From Laceyella sediminis (GTDB taxonomy: Bacteria; Bacillota; Bacilli; Thermoactinomycetales; Thermoactinomycetaceae), in contig NZ_PVTZ01000004.1 of NCBI RefSeq assembly GCF_003003125.1, positions 1-64,000 of the forward strand: DNA of 64,000 nucleotides. The letters are read 5' to 3'. A program made the position numbers and the translations under genes. Below are positions 36,383 through 58,382 of the stretch, piece after piece (the first letter of the stretch is position 1; the number at the start of each line of letters is the position of its first letter). Below the pieces are notes generated by a model, which had not been told where the DNA came from, searched no databases, and worked only from the letters and a program-made list of their open reading frames with translations.

Positions 36383-36689
36383 CTTGTTCACCTCTAAGCT
36401 AACTTGCTCATATCGGGTTGTCTTGCTTATATCAGTTATTATCATAACGAATGAATCCAAGCAACTTATAGATCATACCATCAATGGAAGCAATGGCGCC
36501 AGGGGGAAATTTTTACGTCGCCGTCGGACTACCATAGCATTGAAATATCAAGAAGATCCAAAATGAGAGTTCCCATTGCATCTTATCTCTGATCGTAAAA
36601 TATATATATGATTTTTATTTTTATCAATTATTGTAGCGGCAATGCGCGCAATTGTGTGTAGAATTAGGTACATTATGTTAATTTAATAT

Positions 36690-36718
36690 TTTACAAATAA
36701 TGACCGTAAGTTTATAAT
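36690..36718 (+). promoter_or_regulatory. Promoter of the XRE regulator gene
   Basis: TTTACA (36690-36695), a 17-base spacer and TATAAT (36713-36718). The rest of the stretch 36383-36689 is AT-rich and holds no gene. Confidence 0.65.
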
Positions 36719-36755
36719 ATGAAACGAAGACACAATATAATAGAGGTGAAAAAGC

Positions 36756-37112
36756 GTGTTAAAATGTAATCTAGATTTAATCTTAGCTAAAAAGAAATAC
36801 GAAGGATTTATGCTTGATTTAAACGGAAACAAAGTGAAGCCCACCAAAACGAATTTAGCCATCGCCTTGGGCGTAGTGAAACAACAAGTAACCATGTGGA
36901 CAAGCAATACTGCTTATCCCAGAATGGATACACTGTACAGAATGGCAAAAATTTTGGGTGTTTCCACCGATGAGTTGTATACTTTTGAAGAGAGTGAAGA
37001 AGAAATTCAAAAACATAGAGAAGAAATAGCAAAACGACTTAAAGAAGAAGAGGAAAAATCTAAAAAACGAAAAAAAGAATATCAATTAGCGAAACAACAG
37101 AAAAAAGAGTAA
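36756..37112 (+). CDS. XRE-type helix-turn-helix protein with charged tail
   Basis: The 118-residue protein starts with GTG behind GAGGTG. The Cro/C1-type helix-turn-helix is at about residues 30-75 (TKTNLAIALGVVKQQVTMWT, MAKILGVSTDELY). It is followed by a 40-residue Lys/Glu coiled coil (EEIQKHREEIAKRLKEEEEK) to the end. The gene and its upstream DNA are more AT-rich than the neighbours, which may mark transfer. The target is unknown. Confidence 0.8.
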   Translation: MLKCNLDLILAKKKYEGFMLDLNGNKVKPTKTNLAIALGVVKQQVTMWTSNTAYPRMDTLYRMAKILGVSTDELYTFEESEEEIQKHREEIAKRLKEEEEKSKKRKKEYQLAKQQKKE

Positions 37113-37192
37113 GCATGAAGAAAGTTGCTTTATTTATTTAAAGAAGTACTGTTTATTGACTGCTCAGTCTAACAACGGTTGAGATAAAGAAA

Positions 37193-37222
37193 ACCTAGCA
37201 ACTCGATTTTTGCTAGGTTTTC
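37193..37222 (-). terminator. Terminator of the TetR gene
   Basis: ACCTAGCAA pairs with TTGCTAGGT, with AAAA/TTTTC flanks on both strands. Confidence 0.8.
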
Positions 37223-37242
37223 TTTGCACAGCTAAAATGCCG

Positions 37243-37854
37243 TTATTCAGCGGATGGCTTGCTGACAAACAACCAGTCGTGAATCTTGAGAACCTCGGTC
37301 ATATCAACCTGGGGTTTAAGCATGTAAAGGATTTCGTACCCCAACACGATTCCCATCAACAGGTTGGTGATGGTTTGGGTATCCATGTCAGAACAGATTT
37401 GCCCCAGCTCCTGGCCTCTTTCAACGATTATATGGAGGAATTCCGACCATTGGTTGAAGTTCAGTTCTAGCCATTCCCGAACCGTTTCGTCTTTGCGGGA
37501 ATATATGACCAACTGATAAAAGGTGGCCGTCCATGTCAATGGATCGTCACCAAGGCTGGCGTATATTTTGGCGGTCACTTTTTCCAAGATGGCCCGCACA
37601 TCACAATTGTCGAGGGACAATTCCTCTTTAATCTCAGCCGCCATATGCCCATACCCGCGGTCCAAACGGGTTCGCATCAATTCATACAACATTTCTTCCT
37701 TGCTTTTGAAATGTACATAGAAAGAACCTTTGGTTCTGCCGATATGTTTCATGATCTCATCAATGCTTAGCGCATCAAATCCTTTGTCGGCCATCAGCTG
37801 GAATGCGGTTTCAATGATTTTTCTTTTCGTTTCTTTCCCTGTGGAATATTTCAT
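37243..37854 (-). CDS. TetR family transcriptional regulator
   Basis: The 203-residue protein has the TetR helix-turn-helix at its N-terminus (KRKIIETAFQLMADKGFDAL, IDEIMKHIGRTKGSFYVHFK). A long helical ligand domain follows (DPLTWTATFYQLVIYSRKDE). ATG 37854 has GGAGG five bases upstream. A palindrome TATTCA-N7-TGAATA starts 15 bases past the start codon, so it probably represses itself. The neighbouring FMN reductase gene may be the target. Confidence 0.88.
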   Translation of the reverse strand: MKYSTGKETKRKIIETAFQLMADKGFDALSIDEIMKHIGRTKGSFYVHFKSKEEMLYELMRTRLDRGYGHMAAEIKEELSLDNCDVRAILEKVTAKIYASLGDDPLTWTATFYQLVIYSRKDETVREWLELNFNQWSEFLHIIVERGQELGQICSDMDTQTITNLLMGIVLGYEILYMLKPQVDMTEVLKIHDWLFVSKPSAE

Positions 37855-37869
37855 GCGAGCCTCCAATTG

Positions 37870-37888
37870 TATTCAAATTGAGTGAATA
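37870..37888 (-). promoter_or_regulatory. Candidate TetR operator
   Basis: TATTCA-AATTGAG-TGAATA lies directly upstream of the TetR start. Confidence 0.5.
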
Positions 37889-38124
37889 AATACTATTATA
37901 TATTGATTTTGATAAATAGGTATCCTGTAAAGAAAGCGTACCAAACACACAGTTTCATTTCAACCTTAAAGGGGTGTGGAACATCGAAATCGGATACAAA
38001 TAACGGGAGTCATAAGTGAAGCAATCAGATATGGGGTTTGATGCCACTGGCCAGTTCTGCTCCAACTTCATATATGATATACTAACCGGGAACATTCGTC
38101 GAATCTGAGAAAAGGGGGATTGTG

Positions 38125-38673
38125 ATGAAAATATCCGTTATTTTAGGCAGCTCCCGTGACAATGGGAATGCAGAGACGCTTGCGCGGCGGTTGTGCGATG
38201 GGCTTGATGTGGAATGGATCACCTTGCGAGACAAAGACATTCGCCCGATCCGTGACCAACGCCATACAGAACATGGATTTGAGCCGGTCGATGATGAATA
38301 TGAAGATGTGATCCGACAAGTCATGAACAGCGATATCCTCGTCTTTAGCACGCCGCTATACTGGTATGGCATGTCTGGCCACATGAAAAATTTTGTGGAT
38401 CGCTGGTCGCAAAGCCTACGCAATCCGGCATACGATTTTAAAGGCGCAATGAAGGACAAGCCCGCTTATGTGATTATCTCCGGCGGGGAGTCGGCCAAAA
38501 TCAAAGGGCTGCCCTTGGTTCAGCAATTCCAGTACATATTTGAATTTATGAATATGAAATTTGCCGGCTATGTCATCGGGCGGGGTACCAAGCCTGGTGA
38601 AGTGTTAAATGACAAAGTCGCTTTGCAAGAAGTAGACCATCTCAACCAAGCTCTCAAAAACATGAGCGTCTGA
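38125..38673 (+). CDS. NADPH-dependent FMN reductase / flavodoxin-fold protein
   Basis: The 182-residue flavodoxin-like protein has the FMN phosphate loop GSSRDNGNAETLARRL at the N-terminus. STPLYWYGMSGHMKNFVDRW is the typical FMN_red core, and VIISGGESAKIKG follows. ATG 38125 follows AAAGGGGG. It probably reduces quinones or other electron acceptors with NAD(P)H. A terminator follows. Confidence 0.87.
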   Translation: MKISVILGSSRDNGNAETLARRLCDGLDVEWITLRDKDIRPIRDQRHTEHGFEPVDDEYEDVIRQVMNSDILVFSTPLYWYGMSGHMKNFVDRWSQSLRNPAYDFKGAMKDKPAYVIISGGESAKIKGLPLVQQFQYIFEFMNMKFAGYVIGRGTKPGEVLNDKVALQEVDHLNQALKNMSV

Positions 38674-38690
38674 TAAAATTGCGCGGCATA

Positions 38691-38717
38691 AGCCCACCCA
38701 TTCTCCGGGTGGGCTTA
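38691..38717 (+). terminator. Terminator
   Basis: AAGCCCACCC pairs with GGGTGGGCTT just behind the FMN reductase gene. Confidence 0.75.
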
Positions 38718-38744
38718 TGTTGTGTGGTCAGCTTTTTCAGCTTT

Positions 38745-38855
38745 TTACGCTTTGATCACTCTCTGCCCCACTCCTGACGCTGTTGTTGTGTACATGTAAC
38801 CGCATTTTTCGCAATATCCTTCCAAGTCAGTCGTCAAATAAAGGCGTTCATGAGG
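38745..38855 (-). pseudogene. C-terminal scrap of a small zinc-ribbon-like gene
   Basis: On the minus strand an open frame without start reads HERLYLTTDLEGYCEKCGYM and ends ASGVGQRVIKA. The Cys-x2-Cys pair and the sensible composition look like a real protein end. It begins right behind the ABC exporter gene, as if its front had been replaced by the acquired segment. The family is unknown. Confidence 0.4.
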
Positions 38856-38897
38856 TTAATAAAGCGCAAAATCCCTTTTCTTAAGTGGTTTCCAACT

Positions 38898-40631
38898 CTA
38901 ATCAAACTGCTTGAAATACAGGTGTGTATACACTCCATCGCGTGCAAGTAACTCATCGTGCGTACCTTGTTCCACAATACCATCCTTTGTTAGTACAATA
39001 ATTCGTTGGGCATTGCGGATAGTGGAAAGGCGATGGGCAATAACGAGGGTCGTACGTCCTTTAGCTAACGATTCTAGTGATTTCTTGACGATGCTTTCAC
39101 TCTCGTTATCTAGCGCGCTCGTTGCCTCATCTAAAATAAGAACGGGTGGATTTTTTAAGAATACGCGAGCGATACTTAGTCGCTGCTTTTGACCACCAGA
39201 CAATTTGACACCTCTTTGTCCGATCTCGGAGTGGTAGCCGTTTGGCAAACTCATAATAAAATCATGGGCATTGGCGTGCTTGGCTGCCGTGATAATTTCT
39301 TCATCGCTCGCCGCTGGATTTCCGTAGCGGATATTTTCCATCACCGTTCCCGCAAAAAGGTAAACATCTTGCTGTACAATACCGATGTTATTTCTTAATG
39401 ACTGCAGATCGATATCGCGAACGTTGATCCCGTCTAGTAACACCTCCCCATCTGTCACATCATAAAAGCGAGGGATGAGCGAGCATAATGTTGTTTTTCC
39501 CGCACCAGACGGACCAACTAACGCAACGTACTCTCCCGGTTGTATACGAAGCGACAGGTTTACTAAGACATTGTCCAAATGGTCTTCGTAACGGAAGGAA
39601 ACTTGCTTGAACTCAATCTCGCCATGTACCTCTGGCAAGGTTATGGCATCCGGTTTGTTTTCGATTGCTGGCTTCAGATTCATGATTTCCATAAAGCGCT
39701 GGAAGCCAGTGATTCCTTCTTGAAACTGCGTGCTCATATGAGTCAGTCGTTGAATTGGTTCAATCATAAAGTTGATATACAGTAAGAAAGTAATCAAATC
39801 AGCTAACTCTAAAGTGTTATTCACAATGCTAGCACTACCTAAGATAATCACCGTGATCGTAATCAGTTGGATAAACGCTTCAACACCATTGAAAAAATAC
39901 GCTTCCGCCTTGTACGTTTTCTTTCGGCTATTGAGAAAACGATTGTTTTCTCGGTTAAACTTCTCAATCTCTACGTGCTCGTTGGCAAACGATTTTACCA
40001 CGCGGATTCCTGATAGACTATCCTCTACCTGTGCGTTTACGTCCCCGATTCGCTCTTTGTTTCTTCTTAATGCCTTGTTCAACTTCTTATTAAAATATAA
40101 TGTAAAGGCACCTAAGAATGGTAAAAAACAGAACACAGCGATTGTTAAGGGGGCGTTAATAAAGAACAGAATGACAAATGCTCCAATAAAACGGGCGAGA
40201 TATTTGACGTAGTCTTCTGGACTGTGATGGTAGAGCTCGGAAAGCAGTAGCAGGTCGTTCGTTATTCGAGACATGAGCTGACCTGTCTTTTCCTTATCGT
40301 AAAAGCTTAAGGAAAGCTTCTGCATATACGCGAACAACTCGCTACGCATATCCCTTTCCATACGAGCACCGACCTCATGACCTTTGTAGTCTACAAAGTA
40401 GTTCCCAATATTCTGGATCACGACTAAAACAAGCATCAGCCCACCAATCCAGTACACTTCACCTAGCGCAGTGGATAAGTCTCCTTCCAGAACATCTTTC
40501 GTAATATACCGAACGAGTAATGGAAACACCAAAGTCACAGCAGATACGATAAAGGCGCAGGCCAATACCGACAGAAACAACGTTAAATACGGTTTGTAAT
40601 ATGAGAAAAATTTTTTTACTGGAAAACGCAT
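38898..40631 (-). CDS. ABC exporter half-transporter (permease fused to ATPase)
   Basis: The 577-residue protein has six membrane helices in residues 1-310 and an ATPase domain from about 340. The ATPase domain has Walker A GPSGAGKTT, a Q-loop (GIVQQDVYLF), signature LSGGQKQRLS, Walker B LILDEATSALD and H-loop IAHRLST. It resembles BmrA/YknU-type multidrug or lipid exporters and should work as a dimer. The start codon follows AAAGGGGTAAATC. That Shine-Dalgarno sequence can be masked by pairing with an upstream segment that can also pair within a 20-codon leader ORF, so drug-induced translational control is likely. The gene lies beside a Tn3 remnant and looks acquired. Confidence 0.93.
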   Translation of the reverse strand: MRFPVKKFFSYYKPYLTLFLSVLACAFIVSAVTLVFPLLVRYITKDVLEGDLSTALGEVYWIGGLMLVLVVIQNIGNYFVDYKGHEVGARMERDMRSELFAYMQKLSLSFYDKEKTGQLMSRITNDLLLLSELYHHSPEDYVKYLARFIGAFVILFFINAPLTIAVFCFLPFLGAFTLYFNKKLNKALRRNKERIGDVNAQVEDSLSGIRVVKSFANEHVEIEKFNRENNRFLNSRKKTYKAEAYFFNGVEAFIQLITITVIILGSASIVNNTLELADLITFLLYINFMIEPIQRLTHMSTQFQEGITGFQRFMEIMNLKPAIENKPDAITLPEVHGEIEFKQVSFRYEDHLDNVLVNLSLRIQPGEYVALVGPSGAGKTTLCSLIPRFYDVTDGEVLLDGINVRDIDLQSLRNNIGIVQQDVYLFAGTVMENIRYGNPAASDEEIITAAKHANAHDFIMSLPNGYHSEIGQRGVKLSGGQKQRLSIARVFLKNPPVLILDEATSALDNESESIVKKSLESLAKGRTTLVIAHRLSTIRNAQRIIVLTKDGIVEQGTHDELLARDGVYTHLYFKQFD

Positions 40632-40635
40632 GATT

Positions 40636-40718
40636 TACCCCTTTTTTTGTGTTATTTAAATAAACACATATAAGGGGTACACCATTTACAAATAAGAAGA
40701 TGTTCCACCCTTATATGT
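40636..40718 (-). promoter_or_regulatory. Leader-peptide attenuator with two competing helices
   Basis: On the minus strand, segment 2 (ACATATAAGGG, 40718-40708, codons 11-14 of the leader) pairs perfectly over 11 bp with segment 3 (CCCTTATATGT, 40676-40666). Segment 3 with its flank (TACCCCTT, 40679-40672) also pairs over 8 bp with segment 4 (AAGGGGTA, 40643-40636), the exporter's Shine-Dalgarno site. The two helices exclude each other. The 2:3 hairpin is followed by a T-rich stretch, so it might also act as a weak terminator. Confidence 0.7.
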
Positions 40719-40748
40719 TTGTACGGTTTGATTTGTCATGGTTTTCAT
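40686..40748 (-). CDS. 20-codon leader peptide of the ABC exporter
   Basis: AAGGAGG stands eight bases before the ATG. The frame reads MKTMTNQTVQTYKGGTSSYL and stops with TAA 55 bases ahead of the exporter's ATG. Codons 11-14 form one arm of the regulatory helix. Its size, ideal ribosome site and position are those of leader peptides in erm-, cat- and bmrB-type attenuation. A role as an exported peptide cannot be excluded. Confidence 0.65.
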   Translation of the reverse strand: MKTMTNQTVQTYKGGTSSYL

Positions 40749-40779
40749 GTGAATTGCCTCCTTGTTCGTTAATACTTTC

Positions 40780-40808
40780 ATTTTAAATTGAGTTTATGCA
40801 GGAGTAAA
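40780..40808 (-). promoter_or_regulatory. Promoter of the leader-exporter transcript
   Basis: On the minus strand TTTACT (40808-40803), 17 bases, and TAAAAT (40785-40780), about 30 bases ahead of the leader ATG. Confidence 0.5.
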
Positions 40809-40862
40809 CATCATTATTTGGTCAATTTACACTATAAATAATAATAAGAAATATCCATCTTA

Positions 40863-41153
40863 TTCTAACTTCACATCTAAAGGTTGGGGTGGTTCCTTTA
40901 AATCAATGATGTAATCGCCAAATCGCTTAATATTTTTTGTAAGAACCTTCTCGTCTTAACTGCCGACAGCGGTCAAATCTACGACGTTTTGGAAAATAAC
41001 CGCGTTTGCAACCAAAGCATTATACTTGTAGCATTCAGAAATGAGAAGATCGCAGTTTTCCCAAGGAAGCAATTGTTCCCGATAATGTCGACGAAGCGGC
41101 CGGTTATTGGATGAAATCGCCAGCTTCACGTCTTCTTTTTCCGGAAGGTTCAT
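40863..41153 (-). mobile_element. Degenerate remnant of a Tn3-family transposase gene
   Basis: Pieces match the complete transposase at 55410-58382. HYREQLLPWENC matches DYREQLLSWEEC; YNALVANAVIFQNVVDLTAV matches its near C-terminus. After a stop, in another frame, IKRFGDYIIDLKEPPQPLDV matches the last residues. Most of the gene is deleted and the frame is broken. It borders the ABC exporter segment. Confidence 0.8.
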
Positions 41154-41197
41154 AATACATATAAAGTATTCATCTTCAATGCCGAGGGGGGACTGCC

Positions 41198-42013
41198 ATG
41201 TTAAAACGGCGTCGGTTGGTCTATAAACGACCCTGGACGTTGTCTTTGGCCCAATGGATCAAGCGTTTCACACCACCGATCCGCTTGCGCCGGGCATCGG
41301 GGTTCGCCCCTCGCCGGGCTCCTTCCCCAACGCCGAATGCGGGCCTTCCCTACCGCATGATTCAGCGTGGTCCGAAGATGAAGCTGATTTTCCTTCTTCT
41401 GATTTGTGCGTCCATCATCATCTTTCCTTTATGGTTCATTGAAGTTCAATATGATACGACGTTATCGACGATTGCCAAGACGGAAGCGAAGAAGATAGTT
41501 GAGGAAGCATTCTTAAAAGGCGTCGCAGATGTTCAGGATGCACTGAGCAAAGAAAAAAAACAAGTCGCTTTCATGCATAAAGACCAACAAGGTCGGATTG
41601 CCGGCATCAGTTTTGACAGCCACACAGAAGGCAAGATATACCACATTCTGACCGGCCGCATCTTGCATGAATTGAAAGAATCCCAAGACCGCGAGCTTCA
41701 CATCTCGTTGGGGAAAATCGCCGAAAGTAGCATTTTATCCGATTTCGGGCCGAATATCCCTTTGGATATCTGGATTGAAGGATCACCCCATGTCACGCTG
41801 ACGACCAAAGTGGAGCAATCGGGGATTAACACGACATTGGTAAATATCTTGATTCATGCAGAAATCGAAATCTCCACCCTATTGCCATTTGCCAAAGAAC
41901 ACTTCACTGTCAAGTTCGATTATCCCATTATTCGGGAGTTGGTGGTGGGCGAAGTGCCAAGCATCATGCCGGACGGAACCAAGACCAAACCAATCCCGCT
42001 CGTCCCGAATTAA
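41198..42013 (+). CDS. yunB: Sporulation protein YunB
   Basis: The 271-residue protein has a basic N-terminus, one membrane helix (about residues 62-82, KLIFLLLICASIIIFPLWFI) and an extracytoplasmic domain: AKTEAKKIVEEAFLKGVADV, the RIAGISFDSH segment, then the C-terminal NTTLVNILIHAEIEISTLLP and DYPIIRELVVGEVPSIMP. This is the YunB pattern; in B. subtilis it is a mother-cell sporulation gene. GAGGGGGG precedes the ATG. The first 55 residues are unusually Arg/Pro-rich. Confidence 0.88.
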   Translation: MLKRRRLVYKRPWTLSLAQWIKRFTPPIRLRRASGFAPRRAPSPTPNAGLPYRMIQRGPKMKLIFLLLICASIIIFPLWFIEVQYDTTLSTIAKTEAKKIVEEAFLKGVADVQDALSKEKKQVAFMHKDQQGRIAGISFDSHTEGKIYHILTGRILHELKESQDRELHISLGKIAESSILSDFGPNIPLDIWIEGSPHVTLTTKVEQSGINTTLVNILIHAEIEISTLLPFAKEHFTVKFDYPIIRELVVGEVPSIMPDGTKTKPIPLVPN

Positions 42014-42015
42014 AA

Positions 42016-42046
42016 AAGCAGATGGGCATAACCCATCTGCTTGTTT
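42016..42046. terminator. Bidirectional terminator
   Basis: AAGCAGATGGG pairs with CCCATCTGCTT between convergent yunB and the M42 gene. Confidence 0.8.
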
Positions 42047-42052
42047 TGTTTG

Positions 42053-43818
<1,766 letters not shown>

Positions 43819-55409: not shown

Positions 55410-58382
55410 TCACAATCCCAGTAGCAGAATTAATTGTGGTTCTGGGGGCTCAGGTGCATTGTCCATGTCAATTACATAGTCACCAAAACGCTTAATGTGA
55501 CTGGTCATGTAAGGACTCAAAGCAGCCACGGCTTCACTTTCAATCCCGTATCCTTCTCTGGTCAACTCCCGTAACACAGCTGTTAAGTCTACTACATTCT
55601 GAAGAATAACGGCGTTTGCAACAAGGTCATTGTACTTAATCACCTTTTCTTGCTCTTCCGGATCGTTATCAGCAATAATGCTTTCGCCGCCGAAAAAGAG
55701 CCATTTAGAAAAGCCATTATAGGCTTCAGCCTTGTTTGTTGTAGCTGTGATTTGCTGGCGAAACTCCAAGTTTGAAATGTATTCCAGTAAAAATACTGTT
55801 CGCACTACCCGTCCCAACTCTCGAAACGCTTTGTATAGCCGGTTCTTACGGCTGTCATTCCCCAATTTGCGAAGCAATGTAGCCGAGGAGATTTTTCCGG
55901 CCTTGATCGAAAGAACGACCTGGAGCAAATCTTTCCAATGAGTTTCAATGAGTTTCCAATTGATCGTTTCAGTAAATAGGATGTCAATGTGCTTATATCG
56001 AACGCTTTCAAAGGGACGGAAAAACATCAGGTCTTTCAGGTTCCGAATCCGGGGCATCAGCTTAATTCCCAATAGGTGGGCCAAAGCAAACACGGGTGTG
56101 GATTGCCCTTGGGTATCCGCATGCACGGTATCAGGCTGAATGTCGGATTTGTTTTTCAGTAACCCATCAAGAATGTAAACAGCTTCCCACACTCCGCAGG
56201 GAATGAAATGACTGAATAACGCTATGTAGTTATCCGATACATGGTGGTAAGCGATACCACCGTATCCTCCGTACCGGATATGGTATTCGGCTAACAGATT
56301 CTCCTCATAGATATCGTATTTGGTTCCGTCCGCAGCGGCCGTTTTACCACTGCCCCAAAGTTGTGGAAGATCGAACCGGTAATACTCGTTGATAGTATCT
56401 TTAATTGCCTGATCCAGTTTTTGTGCCGTCACGTGGCGTTGGTTCACGAATGAGAGCATCTTCGGAGTAACCTGTCCCCGCATATGGCGAGCAGCTTGGG
56501 CGGGTCCAAGATTGCAGCCGTACGTAAAGGTATTGAGGATATATCGTTCCGTTGGCATTTCCAGTTTCGGGTCGGAGCCGGATAGCGGCCCAAAATGACG
56601 TGTCCATCCAATCCAATGTTCTACGTTACATAAGATATCAAGGATGCTCCGTTCCGGCATCCTTTCGAGGACTAATTTCTCCAAATGCTTTTGATCCACT
56701 GTCCGTTCTTTTGTCCGGATTTTCTTTAATTCCGGCTCCCCTTTTTCGTTGATGACAACAGCATCAGAGTCAGGATATTTGTGATCGACAATTCGGCAAG
56801 TGTGGTTCATCCATTCCTGTAACTGTTGGACAAACTCTTTCCCTTGTTTAGGAAAATCCATTTCATCAAGGTATTCAGATAAAAGAGGCTGGCATTCTTC
56901 CCAAGATAGCAGTTGCTCGCGATAATCGGCAAAGTCGTCAGAATCTTGAATACAGATATCTCCTGTTTTCAGTTCCGTTGCCATATAGGAAAAGACACAC
57001 ACCTCTAAATGGCGGCGAGCAATTTGATAGCCCCCAACACGCTGTTTGACCCGGATGGTCCGCCGCCAGGCGTCGGAAGCAAACGACAAATCGACCTCAT
57101 CGGGGAGCCACTCCCGCCGGCTATTTTGGTGTTCTTTCACAAATTCGAGGGCCCGAATCAGACGGCCGTCCTCTGAAGTGGAATCAAGTCGAAGGGCATT
57201 AATCAGCCGGAACAGGACAGGGCGATGATTGTGCCGAAAAAACTTCAGAATCAAGGGGAGGTAGTTGTTTCCCTGGCAGGAAGCGACGGCTTCACAATCA
57301 ACCAGAAGATCCGGAATGCTCCCTCGGGAAGCTAAAACCTCTTTGACCAATCGTCCCGCTTCCGCATCTTCAGGATGATCCTGTAAGGCTTGTAACACTT
57401 CTGTGAAAGCCAAAACCAAGGACCCTGTTTTCTCCCGGTGTTGCTCCCTGATTCGCTCCAATTCTTCTTTGGCTGCTTTATGGAGACTGGCCATCCGCTT
57501 AATAAACAAGGTTCCAAGATGATCACGGGTTTTCGTTTGGGCGCGATAGATCAGACAGAGAAGAAGTGTGGCTCGTTTGTCCTGTGAAAAATCTTTCATC
57601 TCCCGTGCGTCCAGTGCTTTGGCTTGAGCCGCAAAATGGCTTACTTTGGCTGGCGGGATTCCCTCCAAGTACGGTTTTGCATCTCCGAAAGTGGTTAACC
57701 AGGCCAAATGATCCAACCGCTCCCGGATCTCCGACAACCTGGACTTTTTAGGTAGGTTTTTCAAACGATTATATTCGCTATAGTGCGATTCTCCCCGTTC
57801 CAGTAATTCATCCAACCGTTTAATTTCCTGAATGCCCAGACGTTGAAACACCATTTCAAAAAATCCGTCATTGACGGATTTCCGGATATGGCGCGCCAAA
57901 CGATCCAGCGTACTGAAAGCGGGAAGTTCATAGTTTTGCCGAACCAGTTCGGCAATGGCCACATTGATCAAGTCTGCCGGATGATCCATGACTTGGGCGG
58001 CCTTTTGCACTGTCTCTAGGGCAATCCGTTGGGCTTCTTTCCCATAGGATTGGATGCCTCGGAATTTCCGGATAGCTGTCTGGTGTTGATACCTAGTTCG
58101 CGGTTTATCGTATCCTGGAACCGTTTCTACAGGTAGTTTCATTCGATCGCGAATATAATTGACAATCTGAGCAGGCACTTCTTCGAGTTTAGGAAAATAG
58201 CCCAACCGCTGCGAAGTCTTCAACAAAATCATGGCACTTAGCAAAGATTTTGGGCCCCGTGCTAATTCGTATACAAACCGAACTTCTTCGTTCGAAGGTT
58301 TGTAAACCCGTTCCAACTCTTTTTCAGTGTATGAACGCTTGAGCCGGGGATATGCAGTACGCTCAATGGATGCCAAAGTCAA
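55410..58382 (-). mobile_element. tnpA: Tn3-family transposase, complete
   Basis: The 990-residue protein is the normal Tn3 size. The catalytic residues are visible: Asp in AAADGTKYDIYEEN (about residue 688), Asp in VHADTQGQSTPVFALAHLLG (about 756) and Glu in NKAEAYNGFSKWLFFGGE (about 884). The N-terminal DUF4158-type region (LERVYKPSNEEVRFVYELAR) is present. It performs replicative transposition of elements with 38-bp ends. No serine resolvase is near; a truncated tyrosine recombinase at 61576 may be the remains of a TnpI-type resolution system, as in Tn4430. Arsenic and cadmium genes lie beside it as probable cargo. Confidence 0.95.

Follow-up and report, generated by a model that had tools for sequence, protein, structure and literature searches.

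The window, the first 64,000 nucleotides of contig NZ_PVTZ01000004.1 of Laceyella sediminis, comprises on its minus strand a gene for an ABC exporter that is preceded by a short leader open reading frame (ORF), with a promoter-like pair and decayed pieces of a transposase lying further upstream (Table 1). The initial annotation had named the promoter-like pair, the 20-codon ORF, the Shine-Dalgarno (SD) sequence and two helices of 11 and 8 bp, and rereading of the sequence confirmed these elements, their coordinates included, base for base. Pairing involves three segments, namely S1 within the leader, S2 downstream of it and S3, which harbors the SD of the exporter. One part of S2, CCCTTATATGT (40676-40666), pairs with S1 over 11 bp, and an overlapping part, TACCCCTT (40679-40672), forms 8 bp with AAGGGGTA (40643-40636), the exporter SD, this S2:S3 helix being extended by a 6-bp apical TGTGTT/AACACA helix (40668-40663 with 40653-40648).

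Table 1. Features of the leader and exporter locus in the window.
Feature	Position	Strand	Remarks
Decayed Tn3-family transposase pieces	41198-40863	-	5' of the promoter; by similarity to the intact copy
Promoter-like pair TTTACT, 17 nt, TAAAAT	40808-40803, 40785-40780	-	directly 5' of the leader
Leader Shine-Dalgarno AAGGAGG	40763-40757	-	coordinates re-read from the sequence
Leader ORF, 20 codons, MKTMTNQTVQTYKGGTSSYL	40748-40686	-	
S1, ACATATAAGGG	40718-40708	-	leader codons 11-14; copy of the exporter SD, putative decoy
S2, TACCCCTTATATGTGTT	40679-40663	-	anti-SD segment, partner of S1 or S3
S3, AACACAAAAAAAGGGGTA	40653-40636	-	exporter Shine-Dalgarno and hairpin arm
ABC exporter, 577 aa	40631-38898	-	ATG at 40631-40629

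A promoter scan returned one such site vs. a shuffle mean of 2.3, which is by itself not significant; by eye, TTTACT was also seen in L083, L085 and L086, and a TATAAT-like box in L083-L087 and L089. GGAGG likewise lies upstream of the leaders in relatives. Between 40500 and 41000 no terminator-like site was found, on which ground transcription attenuation of the kind described for bmrB and vmlR was rejected. Nor does the leader belong to a known RNA family, as the Rfam covariance models, run against 36400-42100 with E values up to 1, left it unmatched and gave only two matches outside of it, both below their gathering scores.

The exporter is related to MsbA and Sav1866 (ABCB kind), and we do not call it MsbA: its best NCBIfam match was TIGR02203 with 507.7 bits, which does not reach the curated cut-off of 602, and it matched 2hyd (Sav1866) with an E value of 5.1e-127. 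The match to TIGR01193 begins at profile position 156, and a C39 peptidase part is absent from the exporter as judged by NCBIfam profiles. To the best 80 of at least 591 confirmed relatives kept from the relatives scan, whole-genome searches added further loci. At an E value of 1e-185 or better, the exporter was present in 13 of 398, 54 of 296 and 29 of 299 genomes, these sets sharing some genomes. In G024, G092, G394 and G557, the exporter is 83-87% identical whereas the adjoining M42 peptidase is 53-64% identical, and the protein tree (built by a quick method with many open forks, and without L089, which has no full frame) groups exporters from different families together. The transposase pieces, which stem from the C-terminus of such a protein, gave a weak direct Pfam match (E 0.24); in their best segment, 19 of 21 residues are identical to an intact Tn3-family transposase of 990 aa encoded in the same window (55410-58382, minus strand). 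Taken together, the patchy presence, the identity gap, the tree and the transposase remnant suggest that the exporter was likely acquired, in line with the initial annotation, although slow evolution of the exporter could account for part of the identity gap. Among 72,556 plasmid records, 24 harbor an exporter relative at an E value of 1e-150 or better, with a best identity of 62.5% and hence no close copy. Among 79 loci with flanks of up to 1.5 kb, there was no conserved neighbour that would tell the substrate, the largest groups with a shared neighbour being 5-6 closely related loci. A second exporter of the same family, leaderless and 46% identical, lies on contig 23 of the same genome (L099) and served as one of the controls in the scan for the three segments described below.

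Exporters with 65-100% identity to that of the window are preceded by 62 distinct leaders (the window's included), designated type A, in Fictibacillus, Bacillus, Cytobacillus, Rossellomorea, Brevibacillus, Paenibacillus, Saccharibacillus and further Bacilli. Duplicates in the 130 nt before the start were removed (L105, L112, L123 and L163, equal to L010, L003, L015 and L021, respectively), as was L088, a 63rd locus (G024) in which a repeat-rich insert of ~225 nt separates the intact leader with S1 from S2 and S3, and which is a natural experiment on the switch. Type A leaders comprise 18 codons in 45 of 62 cases, compared to 20 in the window. At 18 further loci, in Paenibacillus, genomes of G044's order, Lederbergia and one Trueperaceae bin, the leaders, mostly of 18-20 codons, are of another make (type B), with TGGAGGG or a close variant as S1, CCCTCCA or CCCTCCG as S2 and TGGAGGA or similar as S3; here S2 lies at the leader stop (a few nt past it in L018). 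In a third clade with 50-57% identity (labelled C in the tree, where the label also covers members without a detected leader), 15 of 20 loci have a leader ORF that extends, in another frame, across SD and start of the exporter. With leader starts chosen by eye before measurement, the stops of these leaders lie 13 nt (3 loci), 38-44 nt (10 loci) or 134-149 nt (2 loci) inside the exporter gene, the 38-44 nt position looking as if dictated by the exporter's own coding sequence.

Leaderless homologues, which the initial annotation had regarded as evidence against its reading, do exist: L122 (G413, Bacilli), with an exporter of 71% identity, has no leader ORF by the scan rule, this leader design was not seen at L014, L016, L017, L019 and L070 (other phyla, 60-66%), nor was it found at the exporter paralogues with 45-49% identity.

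Several features support the view that the leader is translated, as had been proposed. The start is ATG in 62 of 62 type A leaders, and the distance from ATG to S1, which is 30 nt in 52, 33 nt in 7 and 27 nt in 3 of them, is always a multiple of three, so that insertions and deletions before S1 occur only in threes. Among leaders with a distance of 30 nt, compared in pairs with 1-8 differences, the pN/pS of codons 2-10 was 0.71 in frame vs. 0.91 and 1.23 in the other frames. Constraint on the peptide itself appears to be weak. No conserved arrest motif was found in type A leader peptides, and the sole near-constant peptide trait before S1 (codons 2-10) is a lysine or arginine at position 2, present in 58 of 62 type A, 15 of 18 type B and 12 of 15 third-clade leaders vs. 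10 of 58 genes of the window. Given this weak constraint, sensing of a general early hold-up of ribosomes seems favoured over a sequence-specific arrest peptide. A point against is L136, where by eye an ATG homologous to those of other leaders opens a frame ending before S1.

The helices are not a chance outcome. For the stretch from leader to SD, the observed minimum helix score was 20; out of 5000 dinucleotide shuffles, a single one came up to this value and 55 came up to 16. When the 58 genes of the window were scanned by the same rule, only this exporter scored at least 16, the next scores being 15, 14 and 14. In folding of type A RNAs, S1:S2 (at least 6 bp) formed in 62 of 62 when S3 was masked, and in all 62 the exporter SD was paired upon masking of the leader; a smaller set likewise gave both states in 19 of 19 leaders upon masking of the competitor. 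Hence, the two mutually exclusive helices that had been described for the window hold across type A. In type B, S1:S2 of at least 6 bp formed in 15 of 18 RNAs, and covering of the leader left the SD masked in all 18. Across the type A alignment, 95.8% of S1:S2 cells are paired, a level reached by 0 of 500 shuffles (at most 76.2% with a slid partner), as are 91.4% of S2:S3 cells, a level reached by 1 of 500 shuffles (at most 62.5% with a slid partner). As for compensatory changes in relatives, covariation within type A is modest, with 4 pairs per helix changed on both sides, and L074, where CCGTG/CACGG replaces the GTGTT/AACAC of others, is a good single case. The stronger comparative argument, at the level of sequence, is type B, in which all three segments differ together. 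A scan for the triple of segments over 142 distinct rows (36 of L002-L183 were left out, 29 with no recognised exporter N-terminus and 7 with no usable start) found triples that no more than 15 of 300 shuffles could equal in 50 of the 62 type A loci and in 16 of the 18 of type B; those of the remaining 12 and 2 exceeded that number, among them in type A L157 (103 of 300), L004 (87) and L013 (71). A further 44 rows had a leader ORF of some kind, and no score there reached 16.

The leader is tied to the exporter, as the initial annotation had it. A covariance model (R1) of type A only, run with strict filters, matched in 13 of 398 genomes of the class, which are the same 13 that hold the exporter (G024 weakly, via its split leader), and in 16 of 296 genomes of another order, 15 at exporters and one, in G483, at a truncated exporter. 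Since all matched sites except those of G024 and G483, or identical copies of them, had been in the training alignment, the informative part of this result is that no other gene in these 398 and 296 genomes has a leader matching the type A model. At the G483 locus (L203), the leader is retained 5' of the truncated gene.

Folding at equilibrium was less kind to the expectation that ribosomes on the early codons would by themselves open the exporter SD. In the window RNA from 40775 to 40620, masking of codons 1-10 left the exporter SD paired (-32.0 vs. -35.4 kcal/mol unmasked), and when the first 28 nt were covered, it opened in no more than 5 of the 62 type A and 5 of the 18 type B RNAs. Thus, the earlier interpretation stands with regard to the leader, the helices and the linkage, but not with regard to opening by early-codon masking at equilibrium. 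Naked RNAs have the exporter SD paired in 60 of the 62 type A leaders and in all 18 of type B; the window's own RNA folds to -28.1 kcal/mol when naked vs. -19.3 kcal/mol for the S1:S2 state, and S1 is capable of a local fold-back. Because masking of the early codons leaves the SD paired at equilibrium, the ON state would need either to be established as the RNA is transcribed or to be captured by a 30S subunit.

With moderate confidence, we favour a translation-level attenuator in which S1, as a copy of the exporter SD, would act as a decoy that competes with S3 for the shared anti-SD, S2 holding only one of the two at a time. Upon free translation of the leader, ribosomes would sweep S1 and cover it part of the time, allowing S2 to pair with S3 and to mask the exporter start. 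If ribosomes are instead delayed at the first codons, S1 would be free and could capture S2 once this is transcribed, leaving the exporter SD open. If the toeprint distance reported for a start codon in the consulted sections of PMC9226507 is taken as a guide, the ribosome would reach ~16 nt downstream from the first base of the codon in its P site; a P site at codon 5 or earlier would then leave S1, which begins at codon 11, fully or almost fully free. We surmise that the switch works in this direction, that the ON state is captured kinetically, and that a ribosome-slowing antibiotic or similar translation stress would be the trigger.

The position of the leader stop bears on this scheme. Between the end of S1 and the stop, type A leaders have 13 nt in 51 of 62 cases, 10 nt in 4 and 19 nt in 7; in type B, the spacing is 11 nt in 17 of 18. 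With 13 or 11 nt, as in the common forms, S1 would also be covered, at its end at least, by a ribosome that terminates. In the window leader, with 19 nt and with the C run of S2 starting 8 nt past the stop, such a ribosome would be roughly clear of S1 and extend to S2, and the argument from cover by terminating ribosomes cannot carry the window case, which lowers our confidence slightly. In type B, S2 touches the stop, and a ribosome there would reach S2. The third-clade leaders, lying across the exporter SD and start, fit with the notion that leader translation represses the exporter, in this case by occlusion and switch-free. It is possible, and we put it forward only tentatively, that this exporter clade carries a self-contained translation sensor (leader translated equals off), with a peptide-independent decoy, whose logic was kept as the RNA architecture was replaced; the three architectures would then be an overlapping leader, a minimal switch in which GGAGGG is the SD decoy, and an extended one with AAGGGG. 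On this reading, an RNA decoy of the SD would take the place of an arrest peptide as the sensor, which could thus answer inhibitors of every sort that delay ribosomes at the first codons, irrespective of the peptide encoded.

Among other readings of these data, the one deserving most attention, albeit in our judgment unlikely, is a default-OFF attenuation of the bmrB, vmlR or toiL kind, in which the exporter would be silent without leader translation and arrest of a ribosome at a specific site would rearrange the RNA. The masked SD in naked RNA speaks for it, as does the reach into S2 of a ribosome held at the window's leader stop, and the known cases are in keeping with it: in the sections of PMC4191407 at hand, the bmrB start mutant is expressed less and uninducible (our favoured model predicts the opposite here), the vmlR uORF mutants are nearly silent in the corresponding part of PMC9226507, and the toiL model is set out in the part of PMC12121999 consulted. 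Against it, these peptides lack a conserved arrest motif; moreover, S1 is upstream of S2, and a ribosome sitting on S1 would free S2 for masking of the SD. We consider it still less probable that termination or re-initiation couples the two genes, with ribosomes that finish the leader opening S2 or re-initiating, such that leader translation would activate the exporter. The geometry of type B, where no more than 5 nt separate the leader stop from the anti-SD and the exporter start follows 25-27 nt past that stop, and the 8 nt between stop and C run in the window would suit such coupling. Against it are the gaps of 51-114 nt between leader stop and exporter start in type A, where extra sequence before S2 is tolerated (L103, L143, L148, L120 and, with ~225 nt, L088), and the third-clade leaders that end inside the exporter gene.

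In trp-type attenuators, leader codons compete for a shared RNA segment. The leader codons here, in vying for S2, resemble them, and an amino-acid attenuator with stalling at codons for a scarce amino acid might thus be invoked, but this we find very improbable considering that there is no run of a single residue, that the lysine or arginine at position 2 is the only near-constant trait, and that the gene downstream is an exporter. A secreted peptide of the double-glycine kind, cut after KGG and exported by the adjoining transporter, can hardly be entertained as the product of the ORF: a GG occurs in 39 of 62 type A peptides and the neighbour is indeed an exporter, but GG is found in 0 of 18 type B peptides, the residues past it vary, and the exporter has no C39 peptidase part, upon which we rejected this candidate.

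In erm and cat leaders, an arrested ribosome displaces one arm of a hairpin and thereby unmasks the SD. The locus shares with them a leader ORF and masking of the SD; unlike them, its peptide is weakly constrained and the arm within the ORF appears to be the anti-mask. The analogy to erm, cat and bmrB drawn in the initial annotation thus applies to the leader ORF and the alternative helices but would not extend to the mode of action, as a ribosome held early would act here by leaving the decoy free. The bmrB leader of bmrCD in Bacillus subtilis is likewise a short ORF directly 5' of an ABC drug exporter, with ribosome slowing read by alternative RNA helices and induction by lincomycin (PMC4191407, in part). 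It differs in comprising 53 codons and in controlling a transcription terminator (same portion of PMC4191407), in contrast to the SD-covering helix and lack of a terminator-like site here, and in serving two proteins, BmrCD, vs. one exporter. For topAI of Escherichia coli, the consulted part of PMC12121999 describes toiL, also a uORF with a masked ribosome-binding site (RBS) that is opened by translation stress; in the model given there, a hairpin between uORF and RBS masks directly and is broken by the stalled ribosome. Here, by contrast, the ORF holds an SD-like decoy, and a ribosome on the decoy would favour masking. According to the sections of PMC9226507 at hand, the vmlR leader of B. subtilis is likewise a uORF at an antibiotic-resistance gene and has an SD-masking stem, but works mainly by anti-termination with a uORF of three codons, at which lincomycin and retapamulin stall initiating ribosomes. 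The present leader, the letters of its peptide included, was not found in the open-licence papers searched, nor is it described in the consulted portions of PMC4191407, PMC12121999, PMC9226507, PMC11109978 and PMC10219788.

If the favoured decoy reading is true, an uncharacterised exporter family, patchy in Bacilli and probably moved between them, would be induced by translation inhibitors via a peptide-independent RNA decoy, its likely substrates would be ribosome-targeting compounds, and the leader could serve as a simple reporter for early translation hold-up. The three architectures and the leaderless exporter would, in addition, constitute a natural series for attenuator evolution. Among distant exporters, that of L030 (Treponema bin) is preceded by another short ORF, MKTNNTQNKVLNLMRTTR, with no triple, and that of L064 (Oceanobacillus sojae) by a short ORF, MRLNKTNTVIDRIYGTFLECLRC, with an 8-bp match between anti-SD and SD, the triple being equalled by 130 of 300 shuffles. 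Upstream of the leaderless L122 exporter, a hairpin followed by a T run was seen by eye.
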